Source: a virus. From it: DNA of 40,106 bases. This document shows, piece by piece, positions 5,772-40,106 of this stretch. The notes under the pieces were generated by a model, which was given only the letters and a program-made list of their open reading frames with translations, made no database searches and was not told the origin of the DNA. Every line of letters begins with the position of its first letter. Position 1 is the first letter of the stretch. Where the stretch lies: the IMG/VR virus record IMGVR_UViG_3300010885_064491, positions 1-40,106 of that record; one strand, given 5' to 3'. A program made the position numbers and the translations under genes.

Positions 5772-6071
5772 ATGGCCAAATATTCAAGTACAAGTCCTTG
5801 GTACAAGACACCAGTTACTAATAATTATCTTAACTCGTTAACTATTCGCCCAGTTAGTGCTGAAACAGATGATTACTTGTATACCATTGAAGCACAGTAT
5901 GCTTACCGTCCAGATCTATTGGCATATGATCTGTATGGCACATCTAATCTTTGGTGGGTGTTTATACAGAGAAATTTGAATGTTCTTCAAGATCCTATAT
6001 TGGATTTTGTTCCAGGCAAAAAGATTTACATTTGTAAAAAAAGCAGCTTAATTAAAGCACTAGGACTATAA
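5772..6071 (+). CDS. 53: gp53-like baseplate wedge subunit, 99 aa
   Basis: A short protein whose middle is typical of the gp53 wedge family: YAYRPDLLAYDLYGTSNLWW (about residues 43-62), then VFIQRNLNVLQDPILDF and a short C-terminal piece that resembles a LysM-like tail (VPGKKIYI). In T4, gp53 joins wedges to each other and to the hub during baseplate assembly. I chose ATG at 5772, giving MAKYSSTSPW, because it follows the upstream stop by one base; an in-frame TTG at 5757 would lie inside the neighbour. T4 gp53 is longer (about 196 aa), so this is a compact version, as seen in aquatic T4-like phages. It ends two bases before the next gene. Confidence 0.85.
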   Translation: MAKYSSTSPWYKTPVTNNYLNSLTIRPVSAETDDYLYTIEAQYAYRPDLLAYDLYGTSNLWWVFIQRNLNVLQDPILDFVPGKKIYICKKSSLIKALGL

Positions 6072-26100: not shown

Positions 26101-29100
26101 GTGCAATTAAATAGCAAGATAATATCCATATCAGGAAATTTTGTTACTTTATCTACTAATCTTACCCAAGATGTTTTTGGAAATTACAATTTCTTCACAC
26201 TGGGTAAAACACTTGTATTGAATAGCACAGCTGGTATATTGGTAGGAATGAGTATTATTGGTGCAGGATTTACTAAACAATCAGTTGAGAAAGTGGTAAA
26301 TGCAACAGAATTAATTTTATCAGCTCCGCCATCTTTAATTCCAACAACCGGAGAATTGTTTCATTTCACTGACAACAGTGCAGGTTCTACAATATTGAAG
26401 GTTTCATCAGTTGCCAACTTGAGAGTTGGGGATGTGGTAACTTGTAATCAAACTGGACTATTTGGATATAATACCAAAATTGTTTCCATAGATTCTGCAA
26501 ATTCAACAGTGACTCTTGCTCAAATTATATTTGAAAATATCAGTAACAACATACAGTTGACATTTACAAGAATATTGAGTCAAGCAGTTGATTATATTTC
26601 TTATGCCAACGGCACTGTATTATTGTCCAACCCAGTTCCAACCGGCAGTACAGTCAACACATACGGCAAACTAGACCCTATAAGAATTGATGCTGCTGAT
26701 TTTGATACTGTGGCCAATTCTTCTGCTAGCAATCCATATGCTGTGATGGCTCCCATTATAATAGGCACTACCCAGCCGCCAAATCTAGTTACGATTCCTC
26801 TAGTCAATAACTCAAACAATTATATTATCAATATACCGCAGGTATTTACAGCAAGCGCCGGCGATACATTCATAATTCGTCAAAGCACAAGTGATGGATC
26901 AGTAACTCCGTTTGATTATGATTCAGATATCACCGGCGGCGATTTGGCTTATGCTACTGCCAGGGGAATTGCTGCTGATGATATAGCCATTGATGGAGAT
27001 GGGTTTGTCACAACTTCTACAAGCCCAGCACCTGAAGAAGTTGTACCGGGGCAAGTGGTAGACACCGTGGCGATCAAAGTGTTTGATAGACCAACAGCAG
27101 GAAATGCAGAAATACATGTGGACAATTACACAACAGATGGTGTTACATCCTCATTCAAATTTAAACAAATTCCCAGCAGTGCTAGATCCATAATTGTAAA
27201 ATTAGGCAACACTGTAAAAACTTTTAGTGATGATTATGCCATTGATTACGCCAATCAAACCATTACTTTCAATACACCGCCTGTAACTAATCAAATTGCA
27301 ACTATTTTTACAGTTGGTTATTCCGGTGAGAATATACTGGACATTGAATATTTTGTAGGCAACGGATCCACTAAGGAATTTATCACCAGTGCTCGTTGGT
27401 TAGTGAATGTAACTGCTTTGGTTCATGTTAACGGAGTGACTAGTGAATTCACATTGTTTAAAACAGACAATACATATACTCTAAGTAATGTAGTTGGGAT
27501 AAGATTTTCTAATGCTCCTGCTAGTGGAGATTTGATAAACTATATAATTGTTAGTGGTAATGATTCATCTTTCTCTGTAACCAATACAGAGCGTATTGCA
27601 ACTGATGGCAACTATACATACGCTCTTAACAATATGGTTGGCAAATCACTACCAAATGAATCTAGTATGATCGTGAGAGTAGACCAAACAATTTTACCAG
27701 CTCCTATCTCTATGTATTTTAAAGTTAGTGCCAATAGATTAAACTATGCAATTGATACAGATAGGGTGGCATCAAGATCAGTTAATGAGGCGCAAATTTT
27801 AGTATTGGTTGAGAATGATATTTTACTCAACGGGCGAGATTACACTGTAGACTTGACTGGCATTGTTGTTAAAATTACTCGTCAAACATATAAAAAATAT
27901 TCTGGCAAAGATCTGATTATCAGTGTAACAGCAAACAACGGCTATGTTTATGATGCAATAAATGGAAAAATAACTTTTGCATATGCCTATGATAATTCTC
28001 GTGTAGTTGAAGTTATATCCTCTTACCAACACGATTATCTTAATATTCAAAGAACAGCATTCACTGCCCAGTCTTTAGTCAATATAACTCCTGATCTTAC
28101 AGTGTCTTACCAATATCAAAATACCATAGGTGGTTTTATCAGTCTGGACAGGACTGTACTTAATGAAAATTATGTATGGGTGCTGAAAAATTCAGTGTTG
28201 TTGACACCAGGCGTGGACTTTGTATTGGCTGATAACAGAACAAGTATACAACTGACCAGCGATCTAGTTGCCAGTGATACTGTGGACTTGATTACATTTG
28301 GCAGTAACATTCTTAAATCTGGTATTGCATATATGCAATTTAAAGACATGCTGAATAGAAAAGTATATATTAGATTGGGAAAAAACAAACAAACCACGCT
28401 GGCACAAGATTTGCACTGGAATTCTACAGAAATTGTGTTGACTGATGCTACAAATTTTACCGGAAGCAGCGCAAAACAAGATCGACCAGGCGTTATTGAA
28501 ATACGAGGAGAACGAATTGAATATTTCAGCAAAATTGGAAATATCTTGAGATTGTTACAAAGAGGGACCCACGGCACCGGTATTAATAATTTCAACAAGG
28601 CAGGAACCTTTGTGCAAGATATTGGACCGAGTGAAATAATTCCCTACAAGGATTCTGCCAGTACTACAACTGTGATTTCTAATGGTAGTGACACAGTGCC
28701 CTTGGCATTTGCTCCAGCAAGTGCAAACGAAATTGAGGTATTCGTTGGAGGATATGACACAACTGCGGTTTGGTCTCCAAATACCATATATGAAAAGGAT
28801 GTGATAGTAAATGTTGGATCTTACACCTACAAAGCAAAAATTCGTCATACCAGCGCCAATGCGTTTAGCACAGATACTGATAAGTGGATATTTTTTGTAG
28901 GCAATATTAGACTTAAAAAAGAAACCTACAGTATTTTTAACGTGAACAAAGCTCCTTACGGTCCTGCAGGTGACATCACAATGAATCCTGCACAAGATGG
29001 TACTGGCAAGCCAGATTTTACTGTGGACGGCTACAGCAATCAACTGAAGTTATCCAATGTATTATCGATAGGAACTCGTATCACGGTTGTGAAAAATAGC

Positions 29101-29202
29101 GGTATTGAATGGGATAGTCAAATGAATATTTTAGATGATACTGGACCTATAGCTCAGTTTATCAAAGCACAACCGGGAATTTGGTATTCTGAATACAAAT
29201 AA
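14164..29202 (+). CDS. Giant mosaic virion structural protein, 5012 aa
   Basis: One uninterrupted frame of about 15 kb. The N-terminus (LLPSFYQTPANKKFLQSTID, about residues 17-36; then ENAKASNGNDIY, and FYSWDPHINWDMFVNF at about 120-135) and conserved internal blocks (FYQGMIREKGTQNVLNKLF near 1865, RPRQGMFINRVEALKEF near 3142, LYLDWIFKTSFIRA near 3485) match very large structural proteins of aquatic T4-like phages, from recollection. Added modules are five carbohydrate-binding-like units (near 1449, 1581, 1760, 2307, 4870), an FG-GAP-type propeller region (about 2218-2840), two GxGY beta blocks (3223-3285, 3603-3681), three tandem VGxxVxGxG repeats (about 3958-4138), fibre-like beta units and a RGTHGTG block (near 4800). 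No signal peptide or membrane helix is seen. It follows gp6 where T4 has genes 7-10, so a baseplate-periphery or side-fibre role is likely, but inferred. Part of the wedge function of gp7 or gp8 may be hidden in it. Confidence 0.85.
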   Translation: MANNVNGKPGLSANLLPSFYQTPANKKFLQSTIDQLFQPGSLTKLKGYVGRENAKASNGNDIYTASADQNRQNYQLEPGLVIKDSLNNITFFKDYMDYINQIDVFGGNTANHARLNKQEFYSWDPHINWDMFVNFQNYYWLPYGPETITIYGYQDIANTTYSVEVQSEGPNNQYILTPDGATPNPTIKLYKGKTYTFKINSPGNPFSFKTSRSIGTTNRYAYLNAIDNYGVESGTIIFTVPDTAPKILYFQSETDINLGGTIEIHSVVDNTHIDVTKEILGKTSLILKDGTALSNGMKVAFGGKVVPESYSSGQYYVEGVGTAIVLVPVSVLEIISPWSTAQSIPFDTTAFDKQPWDNAVGYAGETDYITINRASRDHNPWSRYNRWFHKDVISKSASYNNSFISLDQTNRAVRPIIEFNADIRLFNFGTTAIMDIDVFDDATGNTLLNPNAPSVFSAIEGKAGYNQPTLDVNKVLPLTEGMLVLFAGDPDPLVQNKIYRVEYVDVKHLNPTRDLPAGSRQLHLVEVATPMIDQVVLVKQGKYQSQMFWYNGTKWLQAQQKIKVNQPPLFDIFDDNGISLSNLGTYSGSTFKGTTLFSYKQGAGTADAQLGFPLSYQNVNNIGDIVFNFDLVTDTFEYKQNLKLQTKNIDTGYLSLLTYAGSTAYLNGWQLCTTPDVQAAIRIYKNSGLTNSFKLDIFDDSSKLLDLSVKVYINGIRLPSSKWNIVDSKPYKIIKLISAISQTDVLTIRAFSSQPINSNGYYEIPLNLQNNPLNNTMSSFTLGEVIDHVSSIVDNIPGFIGMFPGNSELRDLGNITQYGTKFVQHSGPLSLGIYHVASESNNIIKAVQQSRDDYNNFKRLFISTASKLGVDGDPVTLVNLILQKINANKPNTAPYYFSDMVPYGACIVTNLTVVDSRIRQYPLSAVFTLDTLSNKAVGLYLNGVQLTHGRDYNFDNQGNAIIVTSVNLNNGDTISTYEYDSTDGSFVPATPTKLGMWPAYIPQIYLDTTLINPQTVIQGHDGSIMLAYGDYRDALLLELENRIFNNIKVKYDTDIFDISDIVPSYNRANDYSRDEFNTVLAPNFYKWTNLIGKDLTTPLSYDRTNSFTFNYSKNTAPDGTSRLPAYWRGIYRYLLDTDRPNICPWEMLGFSVMPSWWTEVYGPAPYTSNNLPLWQDLSAGALRIPNQPVTYNKKYAKPFLLDHIPVDESGNLVSPQLSRIAGGTIHPSIDNNFVFGDGSPVENAWTRSSYYPFSVLITNILLSPAKVFGLLLDRSRVKRNLAGQLIYTSTGLRLRPSDIALPSVYASTSRIQTAGLVNYIADLIFNYIFSNNLISYDAYATDLKKINTQLSYRIGAFTNKSQFNFLLESKTPTSTGNVFIPVDDYDIFLNKSSSVKKLTYSGVIITKLSTGFEIKGYSITQPYFNYYLPTTSVGTSVNVGGISENYSVWTPGNHYVLGLVVLHNAIYYRTVVTHSSTDTFNNSYFSQLAGLPMTGGVSAKFKTAWNRSNFNVAPYGTLFLKIQDVVDFLLGYGEYLKDQGFLFDDFNKNLSSVANWETSTKEFLFWTTQNWSTGQDKWNDWSPNQSYTYGSIVRYEADYYSALFNISTATVFDYAKWSLLPGLSNVGSSVISLSPSANGINFVTNLAVVDSISGGFHPYEIFKVDGTPFELAHIDSYRQENTVTYSPRTTDGIYGASFYLVQNEHVVVINNTTVFNDIIYSPTSGYRQERLKISGYVTINWYGGLDIPGFIFDAAAVQSWQAYQDYHVADIVNHQGYYYSANKFLAGAPVFTATDWNLLPKKPTSQILPNWTNIATQFTDFYGLEVDSFNNKQQSIAHHLIGYQKRQYLDNIIQDDVSEFKFYQGMIREKGTQNVLNKLFDVLSSDALESLTFYEEWALRVAQYGASNAFENIEFVLDQAKYSRNKSQSTLLINKTDATVSPFVIQQIPNDIYLKPLGYKSDPFPLQDNLMPVLRSAGYVSLLDVKIAIKDLSFLLNQPATLIETGISYKILTTDSTDYTQLGATSNTPGQTFTASSPGYGNGTVAIDAQQFEEGDYIWCSFDDKVASNSWNVYRFTDIKIRATDVIYNNNILTITCKNLIKNIFVGDYVGIVLDYPSIKGLTNFYKVTSIKLNSFTVNATITGFITPFQYSEELIVFALLTSRATSIDDIDRILLANPKTQNVIWTDDRGDGNWASWVYDPVYMQSTASVRDPSLNYQYGKTIALNRIGTRAAVGSATGQVVIYNKIGKTSAWPYRQTIPAPYIASADVNNLNTIATVLAFSSDSKWLAIGSPYAGHAATRYLGEFNDGISYNEGDIVSYLETYYQALLNVSLNKIPNAATPYWKIIFYIPVDSLAVNSGLNAQGVVSLYVQDANSNYNLVDTIISPYPAANENFGSSLAFDSTNLYIGATGANNAAGRVYKLNYIEITQASTFYDDVGSADTTVHVTSTAGILSGQSIQGTGFTSGQTVKYVLTRLSFAAVPGNPNYIKDVANNLVNLSFITPGTIVSGNNIPIDTVVIKSGRDISGKTYVLVGAEKDLTQSISTIQFANTVVTASFVVANLTSDATLVLSAGPESQPNGLLTFVDTSWAYNLLSTLSGEDGHNYFGSTLSLSNDGKTLLVSATGGEIGAVYIYKDLGHGFYLNNKLLGSYNQFGKSTTVSDNGKFIATTDILSYDETDIARHGTVSVYSLTTDNDYIKFQDIVDHFADTGSNFGDTISFMNDSDTLVIYSENAAGPQTTSFDKTTTTFDKSSTNFITSVIGSGRIDVYDRYNTKWVFSETISNPDENFDGFGSGFAVGTNSIFAGAPLATVKDQSDAGIVYIFNKPSDVFSWKQTRTQSPVADISKLKKSFLYNKKTNQLITYLDVIDPIQGKIAGPANEELSYKTFYDPASYSYSDGTYAVNTNKQTFWSKNQLGKLWWDLRTAKFYTPYFSNVLYKSNNWNKLAPGASIDIYEWVTSSLLPDVWDTQADTAAGTALGISGKSLYGNKAYSVRQRYNSVTKKFVNVYYFWVKNKRITPNVSSRKIAALSVSKLIASPLTEGYTYLSLLGTNSFNLNNAYEYMVNADVVLSIEYWTTDTIHRNIHSQWKLISTDTIVDLPHTIEQKWIDSLCGADAAGRVVPDPKLPPKLKYGVENRPRQGMFINRVEALKEFVEIANVSLLQHQIAKNYNISQLESYDKPPTKISGLYDSVLDTDAELVYANVNLFQRPLVAPIITNGKITAIKITNPGKGYLTAPYIQIVGSGEGAHVRAVIDTLGKIVSAEIINAGQGYNDDTVCIIRDYCVLLNSDTQANGSWSIYSYDPTYVNSVSKEITGIWSRILTQTFDVRNYWNFVDWYGSYTDATGKVSFTATQFTAADFSIQTYADLNLINVSVGQVVKVLTVNSGGWELLYKYADVISVDWTQSYSVVGIQNGTIQLSTNLYETSSTAIGYDASIYDNSSFDIKATGELRKILNALKNDIFINDLKQTYLNLFFSSVRYAHSEQLYLDWIFKTSFIRATHNVGSLGQPVFYPVDNLSNFKDYIAEVKPYKTKIREYISNYTSLDTSKSAVTDFDLSPIISKNVLAIIDTQVVNGKISANNSLIRSYPWKFWIDNAGYSITEIKIINGGSGYVTQPQVVFTSTSGSGATAQAFFTNGVINRLILLTPGSGYLSAPSIRIVGGLAENGTAAKAVAIIGDTKARTNLIGLKFDRLTYTNYIDSLDVNENFTGTGSRLQFPLAWAPDILIGKSSVYINNTVVLRELYTLHMISSVVDGYTHYSGTITFATAPDKSATITVKYKKDISLLNSADRIAFFYNPAAGELGKNLNQLMTGLDYGGTVVGNLGFNTNRGWNDVPYSTNAWDVFDPAFNDYIVTVASNSSYSFRLPYTPAVGTELNIYYQPLAVTSVPADGASLIYPFNLYIGLVTVSVTTLVHSVSADNLTATARGYDNVTNYSISTKLQSVLTAIAGAAGQSIILFSQVDNLVVGQFVSGRGVQLNSKIISISGNFVTLSTNLTQDVFGNYNFFTLGKTLVLNSTAGILVGMSIIGAGFTKQSVEKVVNATELILSAPPSLIPTTGELFHFTDNSAGSTILKVSSVANLRVGDVVTCNQTGLFGYNTKIVSIDSANSTVTLAQIIFENISNNIQLTFTRILSQAVDYISYANGTVLLSNPVPTGSTVNTYGKLDPIRIDAADFDTVANSSASNPYAVMAPIIIGTTQPPNLVTIPLVNNSNNYIINIPQVFTASAGDTFIIRQSTSDGSVTPFDYDSDITGGDLAYATARGIAADDIAIDGDGFVTTSTSPAPEEVVPGQVVDTVAIKVFDRPTAGNAEIHVDNYTTDGVTSSFKFKQIPSSARSIIVKLGNTVKTFSDDYAIDYANQTITFNTPPVTNQIATIFTVGYSGENILDIEYFVGNGSTKEFITSARWLVNVTALVHVNGVTSEFTLFKTDNTYTLSNVVGIRFSNAPASGDLINYIIVSGNDSSFSVTNTERIATDGNYTYALNNMVGKSLPNESSMIVRVDQTILPAPISMYFKVSANRLNYAIDTDRVASRSVNEAQILVLVENDILLNGRDYTVDLTGIVVKITRQTYKKYSGKDLIISVTANNGYVYDAINGKITFAYAYDNSRVVEVISSYQHDYLNIQRTAFTAQSLVNITPDLTVSYQYQNTIGGFISLDRTVLNENYVWVLKNSVLLTPGVDFVLADNRTSIQLTSDLVASDTVDLITFGSNILKSGIAYMQFKDMLNRKVYIRLGKNKQTTLAQDLHWNSTEIVLTDATNFTGSSAKQDRPGVIEIRGERIEYFSKIGNILRLLQRGTHGTGINNFNKAGTFVQDIGPSEIIPYKDSASTTTVISNGSDTVPLAFAPASANEIEVFVGGYDTTAVWSPNTIYEKDVIVNVGSYTYKAKIRHTSANAFSTDTDKWIFFVGNIRLKKETYSIFNVNKAPYGPAGDITMNPAQDGTGKPDFTVDGYSNQLKLSNVLSIGTRITVVKNSGIEWDSQMNILDDTGPIAQFIKAQPGIWYSEYK
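18502..19569 (+). repeat. Three carbohydrate-binding-like (CBM5/12-type) modules within the giant gene
   Basis: Residues about 1447-1495, 1579-1625 and 1759-1802 share the pattern W-x5-Y-x2-(G/A)-x-(I/V)V-x5-YY, ending in a hydrophobic W/F-x-L-P/A turn. Examples are WSPNQSYTYGSIVRYEADYY and WQAYQDYHVADIVNHQGYYY. This is how chitin/cellulose-binding modules of families 5 and 12 look. Two further copies lie at about 21067-21210 and 28765-28910. Assignment is by motif only. Confidence 0.55.
20815..22683 (+). repeat. FG-GAP-like beta-propeller repeats within the giant gene
   Basis: About seven blade-like units repeat the pattern FG-x-(S/T)-x6-(D/N)-x5-(I/V)(G/S/A)-x7-G-x-V-x-(V/I)Y. Examples are ENFGSSLAFDSTNLYIGATG, NYFGSTLSLSNDGKTLLVSA and DGFGSGFAVGTNSIFAGAP. 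They start near 20815, 20986, 21343, 21976, 22123, 22303 and 22537. A carbohydrate-binding-like module and a VGxxVxGxG-type unit are inserted between blades, which explains the larger gaps. Such repeats form integrin-type propellers used in adhesion. Confidence 0.6.
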
Positions 29203-29258: not shown

Positions 29259-29870
29259 ATGCAGACTAAAGACGCAACGGGAATTCATGTAGAAGGGCAC
29301 ATAAAGATTTTTGACCCTGTTTCAAATGAAATTTATATCAATAAACGCAATGCAATTCATTATGAAAACATGAGTATTGCTCTAGCACAATCGTTGGCCA
29401 ACAGCACCACCGGCGGATTCATTTATCAAATGGACTTTGGCAACGGCGGCACTGCAATTGATCCCACTGGCATCATCACATACCTTACACCAAATTCAAA
29501 TGGATCAAATGCCAGTTTGTATAATAAAACATATTCTAAAGTTGTAAATCCTTCCAGTAGTACCAATATTGACCCCACTAGAAATTTTACAGAAGTAAGA
29601 CATGCAACTGGAACCAATTACACAGATATCTTTGTTACTTGCCTATTGGATTACGGAGAACCCGACGGTCAAACAGCATTTGACACCACAAACGCAACAA
29701 ACAGCACATTCACATTTGATGAATTGGGTTTAAAAAGCTACAGCTCTACCAATGAAAGTTTACTTCTTACGCATGTGATTTTTCATCCTGTATTAAAAAG
29801 TCTAAACAGATTGATACAGATTGACTATACTGTTAGGATACAAAGTCTAACTGGCCTTGTGTCTGTATAA
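29259..29870 (+). CDS. Probable virion structural protein, 203 aa
   Basis: I recognise the general style of a small conserved structural protein of aquatic T4-like phages but cannot name a function. It begins with IHVEGHIKIFDPVSNE (about residues 9-24), a beta-rich opening that continues with EIYINKRNAIHYENM. A middle part rich in Asn, Ser and Thr follows, with FGNGGTAIDPTGIITYLTP (about 60-78), and the C-terminus is a beta-rich region ending in YTVRIQSLTGLVSV. There are no membrane segments, and only one cysteine. It is first in the transcript from the late promoter at 29231 and directly precedes the fibre genes, so a fibre-attachment or baseplate-edge role is plausible. Its stop forms part of TAAGGAG, the ribosome site of the next gene, so the two are tightly linked. 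Confidence 0.7.
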   Translation: MQTKDATGIHVEGHIKIFDPVSNEIYINKRNAIHYENMSIALAQSLANSTTGGFIYQMDFGNGGTAIDPTGIITYLTPNSNGSNASLYNKTYSKVVNPSSSTNIDPTRNFTEVRHATGTNYTDIFVTCLLDYGEPDGQTAFDTTNATNSTFTFDELGLKSYSSTNESLLLTHVIFHPVLKSLNRLIQIDYTVRIQSLTGLVSV

Positions 29871-29880
29871 GGAGCGCCAA

Positions 29881-32088
29881 ATGACATATCAAGTTCAGTT
29901 TACAGATTCCGCAAATCCTAATAAGCCGCCATTCACTGTGTCAGACGGCACTGTAAATACCAGTGCAACCAGTTTGGGTTTTGTGGGTCAATCATACCCA
30001 GGTTATGCTCCTATTATTGCTGATAATCTTTTGCACTTATTAGAAAATTTTGCCGCTCCCAACAGTCCTCCTAACCCCGTTCAAGGCCAGTTGTGGTATG
30101 ATACCAATACTAATATTTTAAAAGTTTATGATAGTACCAATTGGGTTACAGCGGGAAATTTAAAGAAAGGTACCGGTGCGCCTGCTGTAGCAAACAGTCT
30201 AGCGGGAGATTTGTGGGCAAACACTGCAACAAATCAACTGTATCTATTCACTGGCAGCAGTTGGGTGCTGGTTGGACCGCAGTATAGTATTGGCACACAA
30301 ACTGGACCAAGTGTAGAAACTATTATAGATTCAAACAATTTCAGTCATTATGTGGTTGCATTATATGCCAATAACAGTATTATTGCAATCATCAGTAAAG
30401 AAAAATTTATTCCCAAATCTATCATAAATGGCTTCAGTATCATAAACGAGGGAATAAATCTTAGCTCAGTAGATGCTACTAGTACCGTAAATCCAACTAG
30501 ATTCTGGGGCATAGCTCAGCAGGCCGATGCCTTGCTGTACAATGGAACCACTGTGGTCGCCCAGAATTTCTTAAGAAGCGATATCATCAGCACAACCAGT
30601 AATCAATTTAATATTCAATCCGATTCTGGTCTAGCAATAGGTGCCAATTTAGGACTAATTGTTGATATCGAAGCTGGTTCTCCAACAATAAAATCCACAG
30701 TCAGTGGAACAAATTTCAATTTGAAATTGACCAATGTGGTCGGGTCAACCAATGTGATTGTGCATGTTGACTCCTCGGGCAAGGTTGGAATCAACAAGCT
30801 AGCTCCAACAGCTGAATTGGATGTGGTTGGCCGTATTGCCACAAATAACGGGTTGACTGTTACAGGCACTGATGATAGTTCTTTTACTCCAGGAACTGCA
30901 TTTACCAATGCAACTGGCAGTATTTTAACACAGGGCGGAATGGTAGTAGCTAAGAAAAGTATATTGGGTGATGATGTAACAAGTTACGGGCAATATTTTA
31001 TAAATTACCTAGATGCCGGCAACAATCCAATTGCAGCCAGTGTTATTCTACCAGGGTATTCAACCAGTTCAGTTGAAGCTGCCAGTTTAAACATTCCTAA
31101 TGTTACACGGCCAGTATACGATATTGGATCAAGTACAAGAAGTTTCAGGAACATATATGCTTTGAATTTTTCAGGAAATTTCACAGGAACATTTACTGGA
31201 ACTCTAGAAGGCAGCGCCAACGGCTCCGCAGCAGCGTTGTCCAGTCCAACAGTGTTTAGTCTAATTGGCGATGTTACCAGTAACAGTGTTAGCTTTAATG
31301 GTCAAACTGAAACCGGTACCGCTGTATTCAACACAGCAATCAGTTCAAATTTTATTTCTAGCAAGCAAGTGGCAACTGAATCATTGCTAACTGACACCAT
31401 ATTGGCATACAGATCTGGTGCAGGGCTGTTGCAAATGCCTAAATCTGTATTGATCAAAAATCTAGCCACAGTACCAGTTGGCTCGCTATTGCCATTTGCA
31501 GGAACAACTGTACCAACTGGCTACTTGTTATGTGACGGTTCTGAAGTTTTAATTGCAACTTATCCAGATTTATATTCTGTAATTGGTTATTCTTACAAAG
31601 CACCCGTACTACTAGATGGTCTTGGATCATTCGGATTGCCAGATCTAAGAGGCAGATTTCCGTTAGGTGCAGATAACATGAACAATAATATCACTGTGCC
31701 TAGCAAGGACGGATCGGGCAATTTAGTAAATACAACTCTGGACCTTAATGGAAATCCTAGTAATGTGGCTCATAGGGTAAACGATGTAACTGCAACGGTT
31801 ATTGGCGAGGGAAATGTTACCGCAACTGGAACTGTTCAGTTGGCTGCTTCTAACTTGCCAGATCATACTCATAGTCTCAATGATGGAACCAGCCAATTTT
31901 ATGCTGTAAACACTCCTTCAGAAGCTCAGGACAGAAATGCTGTGTCAAACAAGGGTACTACAGGGTTGCCAGGCACGGGTGCAGCCATATTGAATACTGG
32001 CAGTGTGAACGGAACCATCGGCGCTTCAATAAACATAATGAATCCGTATCAAACGATTAATTACATAATTTTTACTGGTATAATTTAA
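29881..32088 (+). CDS. Tail fibre with phage tail collar domain, 735 aa
   Basis: The N-terminal domain (about residues 1-140) carries LLENFAAPNSPPNPVQGQLW and GDLWANTATNQLY, shared with the next two genes, probably for attachment. A long beta-rich shaft follows. The C-terminal part has a tail collar domain: VPVGSLLPFAG (531-541), PTGYLLCDG and FGLPDLRGRFPLGAD (about 582-596). A tip region with DHTHSL (661-666) follows; this H-x-H motif resembles the metal-binding tips of T4 gp12 and gp37. It therefore probably is a receptor-binding fibre. ATG at 29881 is chosen because TAAGGAG (29868-29874) stands just upstream; an earlier in-frame GTG at 29857 would overlap the neighbour. It ends one base before the next fibre gene. 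Confidence 0.85.
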   Translation: MTYQVQFTDSANPNKPPFTVSDGTVNTSATSLGFVGQSYPGYAPIIADNLLHLLENFAAPNSPPNPVQGQLWYDTNTNILKVYDSTNWVTAGNLKKGTGAPAVANSLAGDLWANTATNQLYLFTGSSWVLVGPQYSIGTQTGPSVETIIDSNNFSHYVVALYANNSIIAIISKEKFIPKSIINGFSIINEGINLSSVDATSTVNPTRFWGIAQQADALLYNGTTVVAQNFLRSDIISTTSNQFNIQSDSGLAIGANLGLIVDIEAGSPTIKSTVSGTNFNLKLTNVVGSTNVIVHVDSSGKVGINKLAPTAELDVVGRIATNNGLTVTGTDDSSFTPGTAFTNATGSILTQGGMVVAKKSILGDDVTSYGQYFINYLDAGNNPIAASVILPGYSTSSVEAASLNIPNVTRPVYDIGSSTRSFRNIYALNFSGNFTGTFTGTLEGSANGSAAALSSPTVFSLIGDVTSNSVSFNGQTETGTAVFNTAISSNFISSKQVATESLLTDTILAYRSGAGLLQMPKSVLIKNLATVPVGSLLPFAGTTVPTGYLLCDGSEVLIATYPDLYSVIGYSYKAPVLLDGLGSFGLPDLRGRFPLGADNMNNNITVPSKDGSGNLVNTTLDLNGNPSNVAHRVNDVTATVIGEGNVTATGTVQLAASNLPDHTHSLNDGTSQFYAVNTPSEAQDRNAVSNKGTTGLPGTGAAILNTGSVNGTIGASINIMNPYQTINYIIFTGII

Positions 32089-32089
32089 C

Positions 32090-34027
32090 ATGAGCTACAA
32101 TATCACTCTTACTAATGGCACAAGTTTAGCAGTTGTTGCAGACGGCCAAATTGACCAGTTGCATACAGATATAACTTTGATTGGCAAAAATTCTACCAGT
32201 TACGGATTATTTTTTAATACTAATTTTGTGCATTTGCTGGAAAATTTTGCCAGTGTCAGTGCTCCTAACTACCCGCTGAATGGTCAACTGTGGTATGATT
32301 CTGGGGAACGAAGATTAAAAGTTTATGATTCTGTTTCCAAATCTTTCAAAGGCACTAGCGGAACATTGGTTTCAGCATCTGTGCCCAGCACCATCACAAC
32401 AGGCGATCTCTGGGTAGACACTGCAAATGGCCAATTGTGGTTCAATGATGGTATTGCTAACCGTTTGGCAGGCCCTGCTTATTCGATATCTCAACAAATC
32501 AGTGGCTTCAATGTGGAAACGGTGCTGGATATCAACGGTGGATCGCATACCATTGTGGTCCTGTATGTGGCAAAAACTATTTTAGGTATCTTTAGCAAAG
32601 ATACTTTTGTACCATCCACTCCTATAAGCGGATTTACCACAGCGGCACAATTTTCTGGTTATCAAGTTGGTAATGTTTTAACAGTGACTGCCGTTGCCAG
32701 CGGAACATTGAGTGTTGGTCAAAATGTTTTTGGTAGCACTGTGCTGACAAATACCCAAATAACTGATCAATTAACAGGAAATACCGGCAAGATAGGGACC
32801 TATACAGTAAGCAACAGTCAAACTGTTGCCAGTGCATCTTCACCGGCATCGCTAACATCAACCAATGATATCATCAATATTGGATTCAATGCAAGTTCCT
32901 ATCCTGGCATAACCTTTGATGTATTGACCAGCAAGGCAAATTCATTGTTGGCAACGGATGGCAGTCTAAAAACAGCAGAAAGTTTTTTATCCACACAATC
33001 TAATAGCTCAACCATAGGCACAATTGTGATACAAAACAATAATGCACTAGTGATTGGTGCAAATTCAGATGTTAATTTAGGAATTAATTCTGCTATCAAT
33101 ACATTTACCTTAAGATCTGCTGCTGTAAACCAAAATTTGCAGTTTATTGTGTCCAGTAACGGTACACCTAAAACTCCAATCTTTGTAAATGCTGCAACTC
33201 AGCAGGTGGGTATTTTTACAACGTCTCCAACAGCAACATTGGATGTGGCTGGAGATGTTGTGGTTGAAGGCAATTTAACTGTAAAAGGTACTACTGAAAT
33301 TATAAGCAGTACAACGGTAACTATAGCAGATAAAAATATTGTTCTAGCACAAACTCAAACACCAACGGATATCACAGCCAGCGGCGGCGGAATCACAGTG
33401 GCAGGGCAAACGGCAAAGATCATAAGTTGGTCAGACACTGCCACAACCGCAAGTGCATCTTCAAATTTGGGATACTGGAATTTTTCAGATTCTGTCAATG
33501 TTGGAACATCGGGCACTAGTTCAGGTTATTATCTAAACGGGCAACCAGTTGTTAGTAGGAATATCGGTAACACTCAATTCAGTTTAGGAACCAATGTTAC
33601 ATCAGCACCCGGTTTGACCAGTGTTGGCATACTGAGCAGTTTACAAGTTGGAAACTTGGCAATATATGGAAATTATCTAGCCTATACAGGTATACAAACC
33701 AACGGGAATATTCTATTGCAACCAAAGGGCACCGGATCGGTTGATGTGGATTCCAGCACTATTATAAATGTGGCTTCTCCGATAAATTTTTCCGATGCAG
33801 CAAACAAAAACTATGTGGATTTTACCACCCAGCAGATTCCGCTTGGAATCAGTTTGAACACAACTGGATTGAACAACACAACCATCGCTACAACACTGTT
33901 ATCCAAGATTTTTCCTGTAGTAGAGCATGCACCTCTTACAGTGTGCAGAATTCAATGTAGCGATCTCATACTTAAACAGTACCAAATAGTTGGTGGTGCC
34001 TGGACTTATCAGTTTGATATCGTTTAA
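32090..34027 (+). CDS. Tail fibre-like protein, second paralogue, 645 aa
   Basis: It shares the N-terminal domain of its neighbours: ADGQIDQL, then LLENFASVSAPNYPLNGQLW (about residues 48-67) and GDLWVDTANGQLWF. A unit of about 55 residues (about 190-250) contains TLSVGQNVFGSTVLTN and GTYTVSNSQTV, a beta module met again at the start of the last gene of the window. The shaft contains DVAGDVVVEGNLTVKGTTE, a common sequence in phage fibres that may precede trimerising beta structure. The C-terminus (about 560-645) lacks a collar domain and is not recognised; it ends in a short region with two cysteines. The start lies one base after the upstream stop, so it is in the same transcript. The last codons form the left arm of an inverted repeat. 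Confidence 0.8.
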   Translation: MSYNITLTNGTSLAVVADGQIDQLHTDITLIGKNSTSYGLFFNTNFVHLLENFASVSAPNYPLNGQLWYDSGERRLKVYDSVSKSFKGTSGTLVSASVPSTITTGDLWVDTANGQLWFNDGIANRLAGPAYSISQQISGFNVETVLDINGGSHTIVVLYVAKTILGIFSKDTFVPSTPISGFTTAAQFSGYQVGNVLTVTAVASGTLSVGQNVFGSTVLTNTQITDQLTGNTGKIGTYTVSNSQTVASASSPASLTSTNDIINIGFNASSYPGITFDVLTSKANSLLATDGSLKTAESFLSTQSNSSTIGTIVIQNNNALVIGANSDVNLGINSAINTFTLRSAAVNQNLQFIVSSNGTPKTPIFVNAATQQVGIFTTSPTATLDVAGDVVVEGNLTVKGTTEIISSTTVTIADKNIVLAQTQTPTDITASGGGITVAGQTAKIISWSDTATTASASSNLGYWNFSDSVNVGTSGTSSGYYLNGQPVVSRNIGNTQFSLGTNVTSAPGLTSVGILSSLQVGNLAIYGNYLAYTGIQTNGNILLQPKGTGSVDVDSSTIINVASPINFSDAANKNYVDFTTQQIPLGISLNTTGLNNTTIATTLLSKIFPVVEHAPLTVCRIQCSDLILKQYQIVGGAWTYQFDIV

Positions 34028-34047
34028 ATCTAATCGCCAAACGATAT
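34017..34047. repeat. Inverted repeat across the stop codon and late promoter
   Basis: ATATCGTTT (34017-34025) and AAACGATAT (34039-34047) form a perfect 9-bp stem with a 13-base loop. The left arm reaches the first base of the stop codon of the second fibre gene. The right arm covers the first three bases of TATAAATA (34045-34052). There is no U-tract, so an ordinary terminator is unlikely. Confidence 0.55.
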
Positions 34048-34052
34048 AAATA
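34045..34052 (+). promoter_or_regulatory. T4-type late promoter before the third fibre gene (perfect consensus)
   Basis: TATAAATA is the exact T4 late promoter core, 21 bases before the start codon of the next fibre gene, with a GGGGA-type purine-rich stretch (34061-34065) in between. It is the best of the four sites and so the anchor for accepting the others. Confidence 0.8.
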
Positions 34053-34073
34053 TAAGAACAGGGGACGGGCGAG

Positions 34074-35600
34074 ATGTCATACAGAATAAATCATTATAAC
34101 GGTACATTATTAACCACAGTAGCAGATGGAACTGTGGATTCAAGCACAGACCTTACACTAATTGGCAAAAATTATGCAGGTTATGGCACTGCTCAAAATG
34201 ACAATTTTGTGTGGTTGCTGGAAAATTTTGCCAATATCACCCAACCTCCACTGCCCTTGTTTGGTCAAATATGGTTTGACAGTGGCAATAACAAGTTAAA
34301 GTTTTATGACATAAACGGATTTTGGCGCACTGCCGGCGGCACCGAAGTCAGCGCTCTGCCTCCAACGGGACTTACCATTGGTGATCTTTGGTTTGATACC
34401 ACAACTGATCAGCTGTTTGCATACAATGGAAATCCTGCAGATCCTTATACCTTGATTGGCCCTCAGGCAGTGGCAGGTGAACAGGGGTTAACAGAGATGC
34501 AGAGCGTTTCTGTCAAAGACGCCGCCAACCAATCCCACGCCATAATTCAAGCCATTATCAACGGCGTTGTGGTGTTTATCGTAAGTGCTGATGCAGCATT
34601 CACTTTGAATGCCATCAATCCTATCTTGGGATTTGATAGAATTCATCAAGGACTTACCCTTGCCTACACCAGACAGGCTGATAATGGCGTTACCAACACC
34701 AGCGCAACTCATCGTTGGTGGGGAACAGCAACTAACTCTGATAGACTTAACGGCCTTTTGGCCAGTAGCTATTTGCAAAGCGACAATCCTGTTTTCACTG
34801 GTATAGCTAATTTTCCCGACAATGGATACACTGTGGGTGGCGCAGCTGGAGTATCCAACCCCAAATTAAAAGTAAGTATCACTAACAGCGGGCAAACTCC
34901 CACTATTGAAAATGTTATCAATGATACTATTACCTTTCAAACCCGCAGTCAAGCAACAATACTTTATCCCTTAACAATCAAAGGCAGCGATATACTGCCC
35001 GGCGGCCCATTAAATATCAATAATTTTTCGTCTGATAATGTAAACAATCTTGGAAGTGCATCTGCAAGATGGGCCAATGTGTATGCAATCAATTTCAATG
35101 GCACAGCAACCAATGCCAATTATCTAATACTTGGTAGCAGTCCTGTTAGTGCCACAACAGCCAGTGTGGCCACTACAATTGTGGCTAGAGATGCAGCTCA
35201 AGACATTTTTGCCAATGTGTTTCACGGCACAGCTACCAGTGCCAATTATGCTGACTTGGCAGAAAAGTATCTAGCAGATGCTGAGTATGAAGTGGGCACA
35301 GTGGTAAGCGTGGGCGGCTCTGCCGAAATTACTGCATCAAAAAAAGGTGATCTGCCGATTGGTGTGATAAGTGAAAATCCTGCATTTAGAATGAATCAAA
35401 CACTGGTGGGCGGAGTATATGTTGCACTTAAAGGACGGGTGCCAGTAAAAGTACTGGGCTCTGTAATCAAGGGACAACGGCTAATTGCAAGTGATTTTGG
35501 ACATGCTCAAGTGGCCGGTGATAGAATAGACACTTTTGCCATAGCGTTGGAAACTAACGCAACACCAACAGTTAAACTAGTAGAATGCGTCATACTGTAA
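34074..35600 (+). CDS. Tail fibre-like protein, third paralogue, 508 aa
   Basis: The N-terminal domain is shared with the two upstream fibres: VADGTVDSSTDLTLIGKN (about residues 16-33), LLENFANITQPPLPLFGQIW and GDLWFDTTTDQLFAYNG. The middle has RWWGTATNSDRLNGLLASSY (about 213-232), common in phage fibres. The C-terminal 115 residues begin with YADLAEKYLADAEYEVGTVV (from about 390) and contain GVISENPAFRMN and VALKGRVPVKVLGSVIKG; this ending recurs in aquatic phage fibres and may be a compact tip or assembly domain. No collar domain is present. It has its own perfect late promoter. The three fibres thus share a base but end in three different tips. Confidence 0.8.
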   Translation: MSYRINHYNGTLLTTVADGTVDSSTDLTLIGKNYAGYGTAQNDNFVWLLENFANITQPPLPLFGQIWFDSGNNKLKFYDINGFWRTAGGTEVSALPPTGLTIGDLWFDTTTDQLFAYNGNPADPYTLIGPQAVAGEQGLTEMQSVSVKDAANQSHAIIQAIINGVVVFIVSADAAFTLNAINPILGFDRIHQGLTLAYTRQADNGVTNTSATHRWWGTATNSDRLNGLLASSYLQSDNPVFTGIANFPDNGYTVGGAAGVSNPKLKVSITNSGQTPTIENVINDTITFQTRSQATILYPLTIKGSDILPGGPLNINNFSSDNVNNLGSASARWANVYAINFNGTATNANYLILGSSPVSATTASVATTIVARDAAQDIFANVFHGTATSANYADLAEKYLADAEYEVGTVVSVGGSAEITASKKGDLPIGVISENPAFRMNQTLVGGVYVALKGRVPVKVLGSVIKGQRLIASDFGHAQVAGDRIDTFAIALETNATPTVKLVECVIL

Positions 35601-35631: not shown

Positions 35632-38600
35632 ATGACTGTTTCTACAGCTTTATTCACAGGATATATTAATAATGGTACCAACGGATCTACGGGTACCCGG
35701 CTCACGGTAACCAATGTATCATCTGGCACAATCTATTTGGGCATGATGCTCGGTGATACAACTGGCGCAGTCTTGGCCACCACAAAAATTTTGGTTCAGT
35801 TGACTGGTGTGACTAATGGAGTTGGCACATACACTGTGAGTCTTGGACAAACAGCGGGTACCAGCAGTGCCCAATTAACAATAACTGGTACCACAGCCGG
35901 CAAAATATTAAAAAGTGATTACAACATTTTGCAATCAAAAATAGCATTGATCATGGGCAACGGATCTGGTGCTTACGGCTACGGGCAAAGCAGCCCACAA
36001 TTTAAAAGCAGTCAATTGAGCGGCACGGGCATAACCATTAGACCGGCGGAGTGGTCCAATTTGCGAAACGACATTGTGAATGCCTACTATCATCAAGGAT
36101 CCCAGGGCAGTTTGCCTGTGCCTGCTGTGCCCGCACAGGGATCTGCTATACTGGCTACGGACTACGGGAATTATTCCAATTTGATACAGTCAGTTTATAC
36201 CAATGCCACAGTGACTCCGCCATCTGGCCAAGCAAGCCGTATCAGCTTTCCTGCAGGAACACGCACCAGTGCATGGAATGGCACAGTGTACCATACCGTG
36301 ACGTTGACCTTTGATACTGCAAATGCCGCTAGGTATTATTTTAATTCAGGCAGTAATTTTCAATTTTCTGCCAGTTTGATTAATTATCCAGGCTCTCCGG
36401 GTTACGGAGTTGCCAGCACCAGTTATGCCAAGGACACAGACTGGAACCTGTTGTTGACCAACATGGGTACCATTACTTTTGATGTTAGGGGAACCAGTAC
36501 AACTGGTTCTTATACCACAATTGGTGCCAGCACGGGTTTTTATCAGCTGACTACCAGCTCTCAGAATATATTTCAAAAGAAAACTACCAGTCCAACATAT
36601 ACCAACAATCAGTATGATATTTTGGCCAGTGTAGATGCTACTGGAAGGATCATTACTTTTAGCATACAGTTTCAAGATCTAGATACTGGCTCACCCATAG
36701 ATGTAAATGTTGAAGGCACATTGACCAGCACAGTTCAGGCCTATTATGCAGACGGCAACAATGTCAAGGTAAGTTTGCCCAGCTACACTGCAACAATGAC
36801 GGGCGGTGCTATAGTGGTTCCAACACCAGCTCCTACGCCAGCGCCAACGCCAGCTCCTACACCAGCACCACCTGGCCCTACACCAGCACCAACACCTGCT
36901 CCTACACCAGCACCAACCCCTGCGCCAAACCCAAGTATCAGCTCAATCACAGCCAGTCCAAATCCAGCCACTAACGGCCAAACAATAACTTTCAGTATCA
37001 CCGTGATTAATATGCGTGCTGAGCTGGGGGCACCTCCAGGCAATGGCTTTGGCATATTATACATAGGAGTTTATGATAACACTGGCTCTGCCGTTGGCCT
37101 TAGTGGATATTATTATCCTCCCGCGCAGAACGGAACTGTGGTAATTACCCACGCAATAACATTCCTGTCGATTCTGGCTCCTTACACAAGTAGCGCTGTG
37201 CTGACTAATTACCCGGGAACACAAATCTCAGGACCAACTATCACTCTAGCACCTGCTCCAACGCCAGCACCTGGCCCTTATTATGGTACCATTGCGTTTG
37301 TTCCGGCTGGTCCTGTGGTGTCTGGTACCAGTGTATCATTCACTGCCACAGCGTACAACGCCGTTGGTCAAGGTTGGGCTATAAACGTGGTAGACGGTAA
37401 TGGTGTTTATCAAGCAAGTACCTCTGGCATTGTTTCAAGCAATCCGCAAACTTTCACAACCAGTTTCGTGACTAATTTTGCTAGCGGAACACCTACTAAT
37501 GGTTACTTTGATATTGGTGGTTTACCAGTTGAGGTCAGAAGCTTGTCAGTGACTCCAGTGACTCCAGTGCCCTATTTCAGCAGTTATGGTTGGAGTCCAG
37601 CTGGACCCATCGTGGCAGGCACATCAGCAGAATTTCATGCCACTGTAGTAAATGGTGTGGGCTTGCAGTACTCAATTGGTATAACTGGGGAAGCGCCATT
37701 CACTGGCACAATTGCAACCAATCCGCAGTATCTCAATGTATTCAAGTCATTGCAGAGCAGTACTGCGGCCTCTGCCACAGTGAGCGGGGGGCTGGGCACA
37801 GTCACTGATACTATTGTGGTAAATGCAGCGCCAACGCCAGCACCAACACCACCATATACACCACCACCAACACCAGCACCTACGCCAGCACCAACACCTA
37901 CGCCAGCTCTATGCCAACCGTACGGCACATTCATAGTTTATTTCTGCAGCGGTGGAAACAGATATGCCAACTACTATGACGGAACTGTGTCAGCAAATGG
38001 AACTTGTGGATATTATTATGCATTGGTAACTGCCAATGACAGTGTAAATTGCGGGTATGTGCCGCCAACACCAACACCTTATTTTAGTAGTCACGGTTGG
38101 AATATTGGTCCTACAGTGACTGTAGGAACAGTTGGCGCTTATTCAGTTACTGTTGTAAATGCTGTGGGTTCGAGCTATACAATAACAATTGTTGGATACC
38201 CTTCTAGTTCAGGGATAATTTCAAGTAGTCCGCAAACACTAACGGCAGTTGCTCAATTAAATACGGCAACAGCAATACAAGATGGTTATGCAATTGTTAC
38301 CGGAGCTGGATCTGTAAGTGATAGTATTATTGTGCTTGCATCAACACCAGCACCAACACCTGGACCAACACCAGCACCAACACCAGCACCAACACCAGCT
38401 CCTACTGCTTATAATTGCTCTTTGGTAACAGGTCAGTTGGCTATAACTTATTGCGCCAATGGTTTTGGCGCGGGACCTATTAGATATAATGCAACATACA
38501 CTGGCGCGAATGCAAGTGGTGCTGGCGCTAATACTGGAAATCCTTATTATGACTGTGTGGTTACTGTTACTGTTGTTGCTGAAAACGATCCCACATGCCC

Positions 38601-40106
38601 TGGATATGTGGCACCCACACCTGCGCCGACACCAGCTCCAACGCCAGCACAAATCAACTGCTATTCATACACACTTCAAGATGCGTTCTCAATATGTGAC
38701 GGTGTTACTGGCAATAGAAACTACTATAATTATACTGGCGGTCAAACTGGGGCTCACACCACAACCCTTGCGGGTGATTGTGCAACACAGTTGTATAGAA
38801 CTGCATTGAATGTTCCAGGTTGTCCTGGATATGTGCCGCCAGGACCAACACCAGCACCAACACCTGGACCAACACCAGCACCAACACCAGCACCAACACC
38901 AGCACCCACAACAGGAACAATAGCTTGTAGTGCAGTAGCCGGATTATACGGAATACCTGCTGATTATACTGTGGGAACCGCAAGTTACACCGCAAATTAT
39001 GATAGCTTTGGAAATCCAACATATACATATAATGGTGGTTGTTCTCAAGCTCCAACGCCAGCTCCAACGCCAGCTCCAACGCCAGCACCCACACCCGCAC
39101 CAACGCCAACACCACGCGGCACATTGATTTCCTCAGTTTGTCTTGGAGTCAACTTGTTCTCAGTTATTGCAGACGGTTCAGGCGGTACTTATACAACAGT
39201 AGAGTTTAATCAAGTTTGTTACGATACACTGTACCCACCCACACCTGCTCCAACGCCAGCACCAGTAAGTTGCCCAGCCGGTGGCACTCCAGCAGGACCT
39301 GCCTATTGCGATGGTACTACTCTCTATCAGCAAGTTTATACTGGTTATGCAGATGCACAAGGCAACTGTGTTACTGGAGCCAGTGTGATTAGACAAAATG
39401 ATTCAAGTTGCGCTCCATATGTGCCGCCAACACCTGGACCAACGCCAGCTCCAACGCCAGCACCAACGCCAGCACCCACACCAGCGGCTTATTCTTGCTC
39501 TTCACTAGAAGGTGTTAGTGCATACAACGTGTGTGTTGGTTATGATTTGTACTACTATTCCTATACCGGGGCATCTATTGATTTTACTGGCAATCCAGGT
39601 CAAGACTGCGCAGTAACACTGGATAATATTCAGCATAATGCTGCTCAATGTTTTGTAGGTCCTCCAGCTCCAACGCCGGCACCAACACCAGCACCTACGC
39701 CAGCACCAAACCCAACGCCGGCACCAACACCAGCACCTACGCCAGCACCAAACCCAACGCCGGCACCAACGCCCACACCACCGGACTGGCCTCCATACGG
39801 TACATATACTGGATTATATTGTTATGGCGTTGATCAATATGCTCAGTATTCCAATGGAGTTGACGGATATTACTATGCAATAAACGAATATAACAGTCCA
39901 TCTTGCGGCGGAGGAGCACCAGCACCAACACCAGCACCACAACCAACACCTGCGCCAACACCTGCGCCAACACCTGCCCCAACACCAGCACCGCCCAGTT
40001 GCTCTGTAGGAGCCTTGTGTGCTCAATATCAATATGGCTGTTACCTTGTCACATACTTGTATGACGCCGACTGCAACTGTCAATATGCATATTACGAAGA
40101 TGCTTG
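35632..40106 (+). CDS. Modular Pro-rich and Cys-rich adhesin-like virion protein (partial, no stop in window)
   Basis: The frame is open from ATG at 35632 to the right edge (1,491 complete codons). Residues 1-75 form a beta unit like one in the second fibre (LTVTNVSSGTIYLGM). Residues about 115-390 resemble a recurrent phage structural domain: RPAEWSNLRNDIV, then AARYYFNSGSNFQFSASL and DWNLLLTNMGTITFDVRGTS. From residue 397, Pro-Thr-Pro-Ala arrays alternate with compact modules. First come four Ig-like modules without cysteine (about 435-541, 549-645, 647-733 and 818-903), the last two closely alike (both start PYFSS). From residue 761, nine modules carry cysteines, while none occurs earlier. 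Four have the spacing C-x11-C-x(19-33)-C-x13-C. The design is that of a long extended adhesin. The start follows CAAGGTAAAAT. I do not recognise the cysteine module. Confidence 0.85.
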   Translation, partial: MTVSTALFTGYINNGTNGSTGTRLTVTNVSSGTIYLGMMLGDTTGAVLATTKILVQLTGVTNGVGTYTVSLGQTAGTSSAQLTITGTTAGKILKSDYNILQSKIALIMGNGSGAYGYGQSSPQFKSSQLSGTGITIRPAEWSNLRNDIVNAYYHQGSQGSLPVPAVPAQGSAILATDYGNYSNLIQSVYTNATVTPPSGQASRISFPAGTRTSAWNGTVYHTVTLTFDTANAARYYFNSGSNFQFSASLINYPGSPGYGVASTSYAKDTDWNLLLTNMGTITFDVRGTSTTGSYTTIGASTGFYQLTTSSQNIFQKKTTSPTYTNNQYDILASVDATGRIITFSIQFQDLDTGSPIDVNVEGTLTSTVQAYYADGNNVKVSLPSYTATMTGGAIVVPTPAPTPAPTPAPTPAPPGPTPAPTPAPTPAPTPAPNPSISSITASPNPATNGQTITFSITVINMRAELGAPPGNGFGILYIGVYDNTGSAVGLSGYYYPPAQNGTVVITHAITFLSILAPYTSSAVLTNYPGTQISGPTITLAPAPTPAPGPYYGTIAFVPAGPVVSGTSVSFTATAYNAVGQGWAINVVDGNGVYQASTSGIVSSNPQTFTTSFVTNFASGTPTNGYFDIGGLPVEVRSLSVTPVTPVPYFSSYGWSPAGPIVAGTSAEFHATVVNGVGLQYSIGITGEAPFTGTIATNPQYLNVFKSLQSSTAASATVSGGLGTVTDTIVVNAAPTPAPTPPYTPPPTPAPTPAPTPTPALCQPYGTFIVYFCSGGNRYANYYDGTVSANGTCGYYYALVTANDSVNCGYVPPTPTPYFSSHGWNIGPTVTVGTVGAYSVTVVNAVGSSYTITIVGYPSSSGIISSSPQTLTAVAQLNTATAIQDGYAIVTGAGSVSDSIIVLASTPAPTPGPTPAPTPAPTPAPTAYNCSLVTGQLAITYCANGFGAGPIRYNATYTGANASGAGANTGNPYYDCVVTVTVVAENDPTCPGYVAPTPAPTPAPTPAQINCYSYTLQDAFSICDGVTGNRNYYNYTGGQTGAHTTTLAGDCATQLYRTALNVPGCPGYVPPGPTPAPTPGPTPAPTPAPTPAPTTGTIACSAVAGLYGIPADYTVGTASYTANYDSFGNPTYTYNGGCSQAPTPAPTPAPTPAPTPAPTPTPRGTLISSVCLGVNLFSVIADGSGGTYTTVEFNQVCYDTLYPPTPAPTPAPVSCPAGGTPAGPAYCDGTTLYQQVYTGYADAQGNCVTGASVIRQNDSSCAPYVPPTPGPTPAPTPAPTPAPTPAAYSCSSLEGVSAYNVCVGYDLYYYSYTGASIDFTGNPGQDCAVTLDNIQHNAAQCFVGPPAPTPAPTPAPTPAPNPTPAPTPAPTPAPNPTPAPTPTPPDWPPYGTYTGLYCYGVDQYAQYSNGVDGYYYAINEYNSPSCGGGAPAPTPAPQPTPAPTPAPTPAPTPAPPSCSVGALCAQYQYGCYLVTYLYDADCNCQYAYYEDA
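36820..39996 (+). repeat. Twelve Pro-Thr-Pro-Ala coding arrays separating modules
   Basis: In-frame arrays of (PTPA)n occur at 36820-36933, 37249-37278, 37831-37908, 38062-38079, 38344-38406, 38614-38649, 38836-38907, 39049-39114, 39235-39264, 39424-39486, 39661-39783 and 39916-39996. Third codon positions vary (CCA, CCT, CCG; ACA, ACG; GCA, GCT, GCG), so the protein repeat is under selection and not merely a copied DNA repeat. They should form stiff, extended spacers. Confidence 0.85.
39679..39762 (+). repeat. Exact 42-bp tandem duplication in a Pro-rich array
   Basis: The 14-codon unit at 39679-39720 is repeated without a change at 39721-39762. It encodes APTPAPTPAPNPTP. Perfect identity at third positions contrasts with the variation in the other arrays and indicates a recent slippage or unequal-exchange event. 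Confidence 0.9.

Follow-up and report, generated by a model that had tools for sequence, protein, structure and literature searches.

The window (the whole stretch of DNA that was analysed, 40,106 bp) is identical to its viral record, G000, and ends inside the gene for a large modular protein. This gene is preceded on the same strand by genes for a gp5-like spike protein, gp25, a protein of 1,167 aa located where the baseplate wedge would be expected, a 5,017-aa protein, a protein of family phrog_11259 and three fibre-type proteins. The 5,017-aa protein is encoded by a single open reading frame (14149-29202) where the gene for a giant virion protein lies in RaK2 (length 9,981 bp) and in Phosso (length 13,668 bp), and a tRNA-Ser gene (TGA; 5944-6029) lies amid the structural genes, overlapping a short open reading frame. 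Among the 60 phage records that match phrog_11259, Phosso, Atu_ph07, and RaK2-type and Munch-type jumbo phages lead; the homologues of RaK2, Phosso and Atu_ph07 (42-54% identity) also lie in the structural region, and the order of wedge, giant virion protein and phrog_11259 is exact in Phosso and rearranged in RaK2. The synteny with Phosso and the phrog_11259 matches place the window in the RaK2-like jumbo myophage lineage; the window itself is a 40-kb contig, and its relative L013 lies within a record of 345,369 bp. Judged from homology and gene order, the window comes from an uncultured RaK2-like jumbo myophage whose baseplate/tail-fibre cluster ends, as far as the contig shows, with the modular gene; the position of that gene suggests that its product is a component of the virion. 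In Phosso (19260-31785 of L112), four radical SAM genes follow the phrog_11259 gene. The features of the window that are discussed below are as follows.

29259..29870, +, phrog_11259 protein, synteny anchor common to RaK2, Phosso and Atu_ph07
29857..35600, +, three fibre-type genes: 29857-32088 (Collar domain), 32090-34027 and 34074-35600
35632..40104, +, modular protein, a frame of 1,491 codons still open at the contig end
35632..35880, +, N-terminal segment before the head (aa 1-83), poorly predicted; the related position in L087 matches tail-fibre family phrog_38233
35881..36819, +, head domain (aa 84-396), helices then beta-sandwich; family without a Pfam or PHROG entry, a stand-alone gene in relatives
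36820..36936, +, proline linkers 1-2 (aa 397-435)
36940..37251, +, Ig-like module 1 (by profile), similar to a module of L117 (aa 766-862)
37252..37278, +, proline linker 3
37279..37557, +, Ig-like module 2 (by profile)
37564..37833, +, Ig-like module 3 (by profile), seven strands, AlphaFold2 pLDDT 96
37831..37908, +, proline linkers 4-5
37912..38064, +, cysteine module 1 (4 Cys)
38080..38346, +, Ig-like module 4 (by profile)
38347..38406, +, proline linker 6
38410..38613, +, cysteine module 2 (4 Cys)
38614..38649, +, proline linker 7
38653..38838, +, cysteine module 3 (4 Cys)
38839..38910, +, proline linker 8
38914..39051, +, cysteine module 4 (2 Cys, divergent)
39052..39114, +, proline linker 9
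39115..39237, +, cysteine module 5 (2 Cys, divergent)
39238..39267, +, proline linker 10
39271..39426, +, cysteine module 6 (4 Cys)
39427..39486, +, proline linker 11
39490..39663, +, cysteine module 7 (4 Cys)
39664..39780, +, proline linker 12, the longest (39 residues), with a perfect 42-bp tandem repeat
39784..39918, +, cysteine module 8 (2 Cys)
39919..39993, +, proline linker 13
39997..40104, +, cysteine module 9, truncated at the contig end (5 Cys in the visible part)

The frame of the modular protein opens with an ATG at 35632 and continues without a stop codon to 40104, its 3' end being open at the contig end; an exact scan with 30 bases from the right end of the contig gave zero matches, so the gene could not be extended. 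An earlier sequence-only reading of this DNA had described a very large frame running off the window with a modular, beads-on-a-string layout, and both descriptions hold: behind a head domain, the protein has four modules of Ig-like type and nine with cysteines, along with 13 PTPA-type linkers. That reading had also placed the linkers and Ig-like modules first and the cysteine modules after them; all of these parts are present, but the order is not strict, as cysteine module 1 (aa 761-811) lies between Ig-like modules 3 and 4. Its description of a conserved fibre-type N-terminus stands as to conservation but not as to type: the protein matches no fibre family, nor any other family, of PHROGs or Pfam (0 families), and so gives no match to a known trimeric tail fibre, and the fibre-typical N-terminus LLENFA...GQLWYD, found in the three upstream genes, is absent from it. 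In the last of those three genes (34074-35600), the C-terminal region weakly resembles the Peptidase_G2 autoproteolytic domain (19.3 bits, cut-off 25).

The head part (aa 1-396) contains no cysteine and no proline tract, and all 31 cysteines of the protein are restricted to the nine short modules from aa 761 onward. The 13 linkers total 240 residues, of which 123 are proline and 56 threonine, and the PTPA-coding pattern PTPAPTPAPTPAP has 21 matches with at most one mismatch, versus none in 100 dinucleotide shuffles. Proline in the linkers is encoded by CCA (88), CCT (23), CCC (7) and CCG (5), and the codons for threonine and alanine likewise vary at the third base; this variation under a constant peptide indicates selection on the peptide rather than maintenance of a DNA microsatellite. 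A phmmer search of the PDB with the whole protein returned matches that were judged to be of low complexity and discarded. The protein that the window encodes is real, is built of modules on proline linkers and belongs to a jumbo phage; in itself it is a strong if not startling variant of known fibre architecture, and its role as an adhesin, with modules that bind glycans or proteins, is putative.

Relatives were gathered through neighbouring genes, and the head was then found in them with a profile. The head family is present in 64 of 80 phrog_11259 loci, mostly as a stand-alone gene of about 300 aa and sometimes in two copies, and has no Pfam or PHROG entry. It was not detected in a search of a phage collection, a second search yielded only partial matches in three marine records, and none was found in the bacterial genomes searched. 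The AlphaFold2 model of the head (as a monomer) is confident for residues 90-396 and consists of helices followed by a beta-sandwich. Foldseek found nothing in the PDB at E<=0.001; in the VIA comparison, Csp proteases came first, with a Z of 6.5 across 113 residues in the C-terminal half, followed by galectin-like sandwiches at about 4, which was read as a common sandwich only. Four phage proteins in the BFVD match the model at E<=0.001, none of them with an assigned function.

By profile, the four Ig-like modules belong to one family, common to L009, L033, L115, L116 and L117. The predicted model of module 3 (pLDDT 96) has seven strands and aligns across 80-89 of its 90 residues with solved structures, many of which are Ig or Ig-like domains, at Z values between 8.2 and 10.0 (the highest over 88 residues), and this predicted fold supports the earlier assignment of Ig-like modules. 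The Pfam Ig family did not match the four modules, and scans with single modules gave one hit that was read as chance; among the modules of relatives, those of L069 match He_PIG above the cut-off and those of L013 match Calx-beta below it. The cysteine modules appear particular to the window in the searches made: a pattern search gave 0 hits, tblastn no match, and a profile found the window only.

The extensions that follow assessable heads range from 0 to 765 residues, and that of the window has at least 1,095. The expectation that module number varies among related phages is thus borne out, most directly by L013 and L015, which are 98.4% identical over 12.8 kb to a point just past the head, where 1,509 bp are then missing from L015. 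At the edges of the gap, L015 still has the opening bases of the extension, preceded by a stop codon absent from L013, and the closing bases of the next gene, and because both edge remnants are kept, the difference is best read as a deletion in L015. This single deletion of about 1.5 kb took both the modules and the gene that follows them.

That next gene, which the sequence-only reading overlooked, encodes a prolyl 4-hydroxylase (P4H) and follows most of the proline-rich relatives. In L013 and L033 its start overlaps the adhesin stop, and its product is a 2OG-Fe(II) oxygenase (PF13640). Compared by sequence with the PDB, the enzyme has nine matches (best E 1.8e-33), eight of them named prolyl 4-hydroxylase or procollagen-proline dioxygenase and the ninth, 3gze, titled 'Predicted protein', which we take to be the P4H of Chlamydomonas. 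The HxD motif, the distal histidine and the 2OG-binding lysine of the 2OG-Fe(II) domain are invariant in 7 of 7 sequences. By homology the next gene is a P4H gene, and hydroxylation of peptidyl proline is its putative activity. Two scans for P4H loci, one using this enzyme as query and one of wider reach, gave 11 and 80 loci, respectively. In the window's family, 11 contigs have the gene upstream of P4H visible: the P4H start overlaps the adhesin stop in ten, and a gap of about 250 bp separates the two genes in L116. The upstream proteins all have proline tracts except the short fragments of L118 and L163; the fragment of L164 has PPP/PPPP tracts that a strict proline regular expression missed. 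A second oxygenase follows in L033, L113, L115, L117, L118 and L123. A Pfam scan of nine upstream open reading frames of the window found no P4H, and the contig ends before the next gene; that the window's phage also possesses the enzyme is a prediction from its relatives. Further downstream, L013 (14720-18609) and its equivalents have a conserved run of genes that by eye resemble glycosyltransferases and that, when scanned in L013, gave no Pfam match; a tie between these genes and the linkers was rejected, as they occur with and without P4H and also without proline tracts.

We propose that the head would fix a long modular surface protein to the particle, and that Ig-like modules followed mostly by cysteine modules would be carried on linkers that, from their PTPA sequence, are probably stiff and extended. 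Comparison of related phages shows that modules are gained, lost and swapped. The linkers would be the likely substrate of the phage-encoded P4H, whose gene normally follows such adhesins; hydroxylation may stiffen them and supply hydroxyl groups for sugars, producing a protease-resistant hydroxyproline-rich stalk. The whole explanation, a modular surface protein of a RaK2-like phage with linkers that are hydroxylated, and perhaps glycosylated, by way of a phage P4H, is offered tentatively, as one whose chance of being correct approaches an even one without reaching it.

The alternative that survives best, which has a substantial chance of being right but one clearly below even, is that this modular fibre or adhesin has plain, unmodified proline spacers, for which the architecture alone suffices, and that the P4H serves another purpose and sits in a hypervariable cargo spot. 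The linkage of P4H to proline linkers was tabulated over 77 head-gene loci, of which 63 were assessable (ten of the 14 dropped, including the window, were open at the 3' end, and four, L034, L039, L100 and L105, had less than 700 bp after the gene). After clustering at 95% head identity, P4H followed four clusters with proline-rich extensions and was absent from two (L009 and L078), and it followed none of the 48 clusters without proline-rich linkers (p 4.7e-5). The corresponding counts were 2, 2, 0 and 42 with clustering at 70% (p 0.0058), and 2, 2, 0 and 9 at 70% when only extended adhesins were considered (p 0.077). Some of the P4H-positive rows (L113-L117) had been fetched by means of P4H; loci collected independently of P4H give 2, 2, 0 and 48 (p 0.0045). 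Where a head gene is present but a proline tract is not, a search of the entire record for P4H was also negative (0 of 40 records). Plain spacers would not predict that P4H never follows head genes without proline tracts, nor that its start overlaps the adhesin stop; they accord well with L009 and L078, which have proline-rich extensions and no P4H anywhere in their records. They also accord with the reverse comparison, in which most phage P4Hs do not adjoin proline-rich genes: only five of 29 phage P4H clusters adjoin a gene with at least 9 Pro in 20 aa (random mean 1.22, reached in 0 of 1000 trials), with no excess at a threshold of at least 7 Pro in 20 aa (5 versus 4.09 at random), and no PTPA or polyproline neighbour was seen in 12 regions taken from records of named phages, comprising isolates, phages from single cells and one faecal scaffold. 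The weakness of this reverse test suggests that the majority of phage P4Hs have another function or act on a substrate encoded far away. Collagen-like neighbours as a general rule were rejected, there being none in the 80-locus set; in L253, a single-cell marine phage (3380-5582), the gene immediately after that of a collagen-like, GPP-rich fibre encodes a P4H-like oxygenase.

PTPA proteins of unrelated phages have the same neighbour, which is the third point against plain spacers. The pattern PTPAPTPAxxxC was found at 36 loci, at 20 of which it lies in a gene-level open reading frame, and P4H is nearby at 15 of these 20 (within three genes at 14, and beyond the stored end at the fifteenth, L136); these 15 loci collapse to two kinds of P4H, or three if the L124 fragment is counted apart, and so their number overstates their independence. 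The five loci without a nearby P4H (L127, L157, L142, L135 and L130) are all linear, possibly partial records, and the 245-kb record of L130 has P4H matches far from the PTPA gene. In a background of 94 head/fibre loci, three hold P4H, two of them proline-rich. In L220 (6911-9912), the P4H gene comes immediately after a pair of adjacent genes for PTPA proteins, the first with 23 Cys and the second with 9.

Sugar transferases are encoded beside some of these P4H and PTPA genes: PF11397 transferases in L124 (E 4e-36) and L129 (E 4e-52), a DXD sugar transferase in L133 and a GT1-methyltransferase protein in L220. Gnt1, the enzyme that attaches GlcNAc to hydroxyproline in Skp1, presumably belongs to PF11397. 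This family occurs in 6 of the 26 proline-rich records and in 1 of 33 other P4H records; in the window's family it was found in 0 of 22 records, where control genomes were also blank, though the same query matched elsewhere. A PDB look-up for the PF11397 transferase returned nothing. Sets of PTPA protein, PF11397 transferase and P4H are located at 7097-10546 of L184 (in the order PTPA protein, small Cys protein, PF11397, a GT2-like protein recognized by eye, P4H), 2-4099 of L124 (with a radical SAM gene between P4H and the transferase) and 1550-5511 of L129. Some large phages may hydroxylate the PTPA or polyproline stalks of an adhesin by means of a P4H encoded next to it, and in lineages other than the window's, PF11397 proteins may add GlcNAc to the hydroxyproline, mirroring the chemistry of protist Skp1 and plant hydroxyproline-rich glycoproteins; this broader idea is credible, with the balance somewhat against it.

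Bacterial P4H-like enzymes have been reported to act on elongation factor Tu or in regulation, and the closest PDB relatives of the phage enzyme (5iax, 3itq and 5hv0) are bacterial P4Hs. That the phage enzyme hydroxylates elongation factor Tu or another host protein, or has a regulatory role, and that its gene owes its position to chance, is nonetheless improbable in view of the tight overlap of the two genes, the joint loss of enzyme and modules in L015 and the repeated pairing with PTPA proteins. Least probable of all is that the protein is secreted or non-structural, or that its gene is a remnant decaying within a hypervariable island, as the variable module content and the loss of modules in L015 might suggest, for the gene continues a same-strand run after baseplate and fibre genes, keeps 1,491 codons open with third-base variation, and has a head that is conserved in 64 of 80 related loci. 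Through the gene that comes after its proline-rich relatives, the window's protein becomes a testable case of hydroxyproline made by a phage, which for the window itself is a prediction.

Compared with known systems, the window resembles RaK2, Phosso and Atu_ph07 in having the phrog_11259 protein in a baseplate/structural region, in Phosso directly after the wedge and giant virion protein, and differs in its head family, which was not detected in the regions of RaK2 and Phosso. The relatives' enzyme aligns with P4Hs of bacterial, algal and chlorovirus origin (5hv0/3itq, 2jig/3gze and 5c5t, which we take to be from Bacillus anthracis, Chlamydomonas and PBCV-1, respectively) at E values of 2e-33 to 2e-20, but differs from them in that its gene is coupled to that of a phage fibre-type protein. 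The PBCV-1 enzyme was reportedly found by Eriksson in 1999 to act on proline-rich viral peptides. Phages of aquatic habitats often carry 2OG-Fe(II) oxygenases and P4H, and the tight coupling of a P4H to proline-linker adhesins names a candidate substrate. According to PMC9301287, the use of P4H by viruses is cryptic, and PMC3037559 gives 2OG-Fe(II) oxygenases in 14 of 16 cyanophage genomes, for which it proposes roles in DNA repair and the metabolism of 2-oxoglutarate. In PMC5259590, the Ig-like domains that phage particles carry are proposed to assist contact with the host surface; the window shares such modules and differs in its PTPA linkers and cysteine modules. In the Skp1 pathway, PhyA acts before Gnt1, which works on the hydroxylated product (PMC11570480), and some PTPA phage loci similarly pair P4H with a PF11397 transferase, which was absent from the 22 records of the window's own family that were searched. 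No paper on a phage P4H paired with a proline-rich fibre was found in the literature searched; if the proposal is correct, phages carry a post-translational modification of host-binding parts that is undescribed in that literature. The alternating X-Pro repeats of the linkers in this phage protein also resemble, in pattern, the glycomodules of plant and algal hydroxyproline-rich glycoproteins (AGP-type Ala-Pro/Thr-Pro). If hydroxylation does occur, these phages could be making hydroxyproline-rich surface proteins, a class more familiar in plants and algae.
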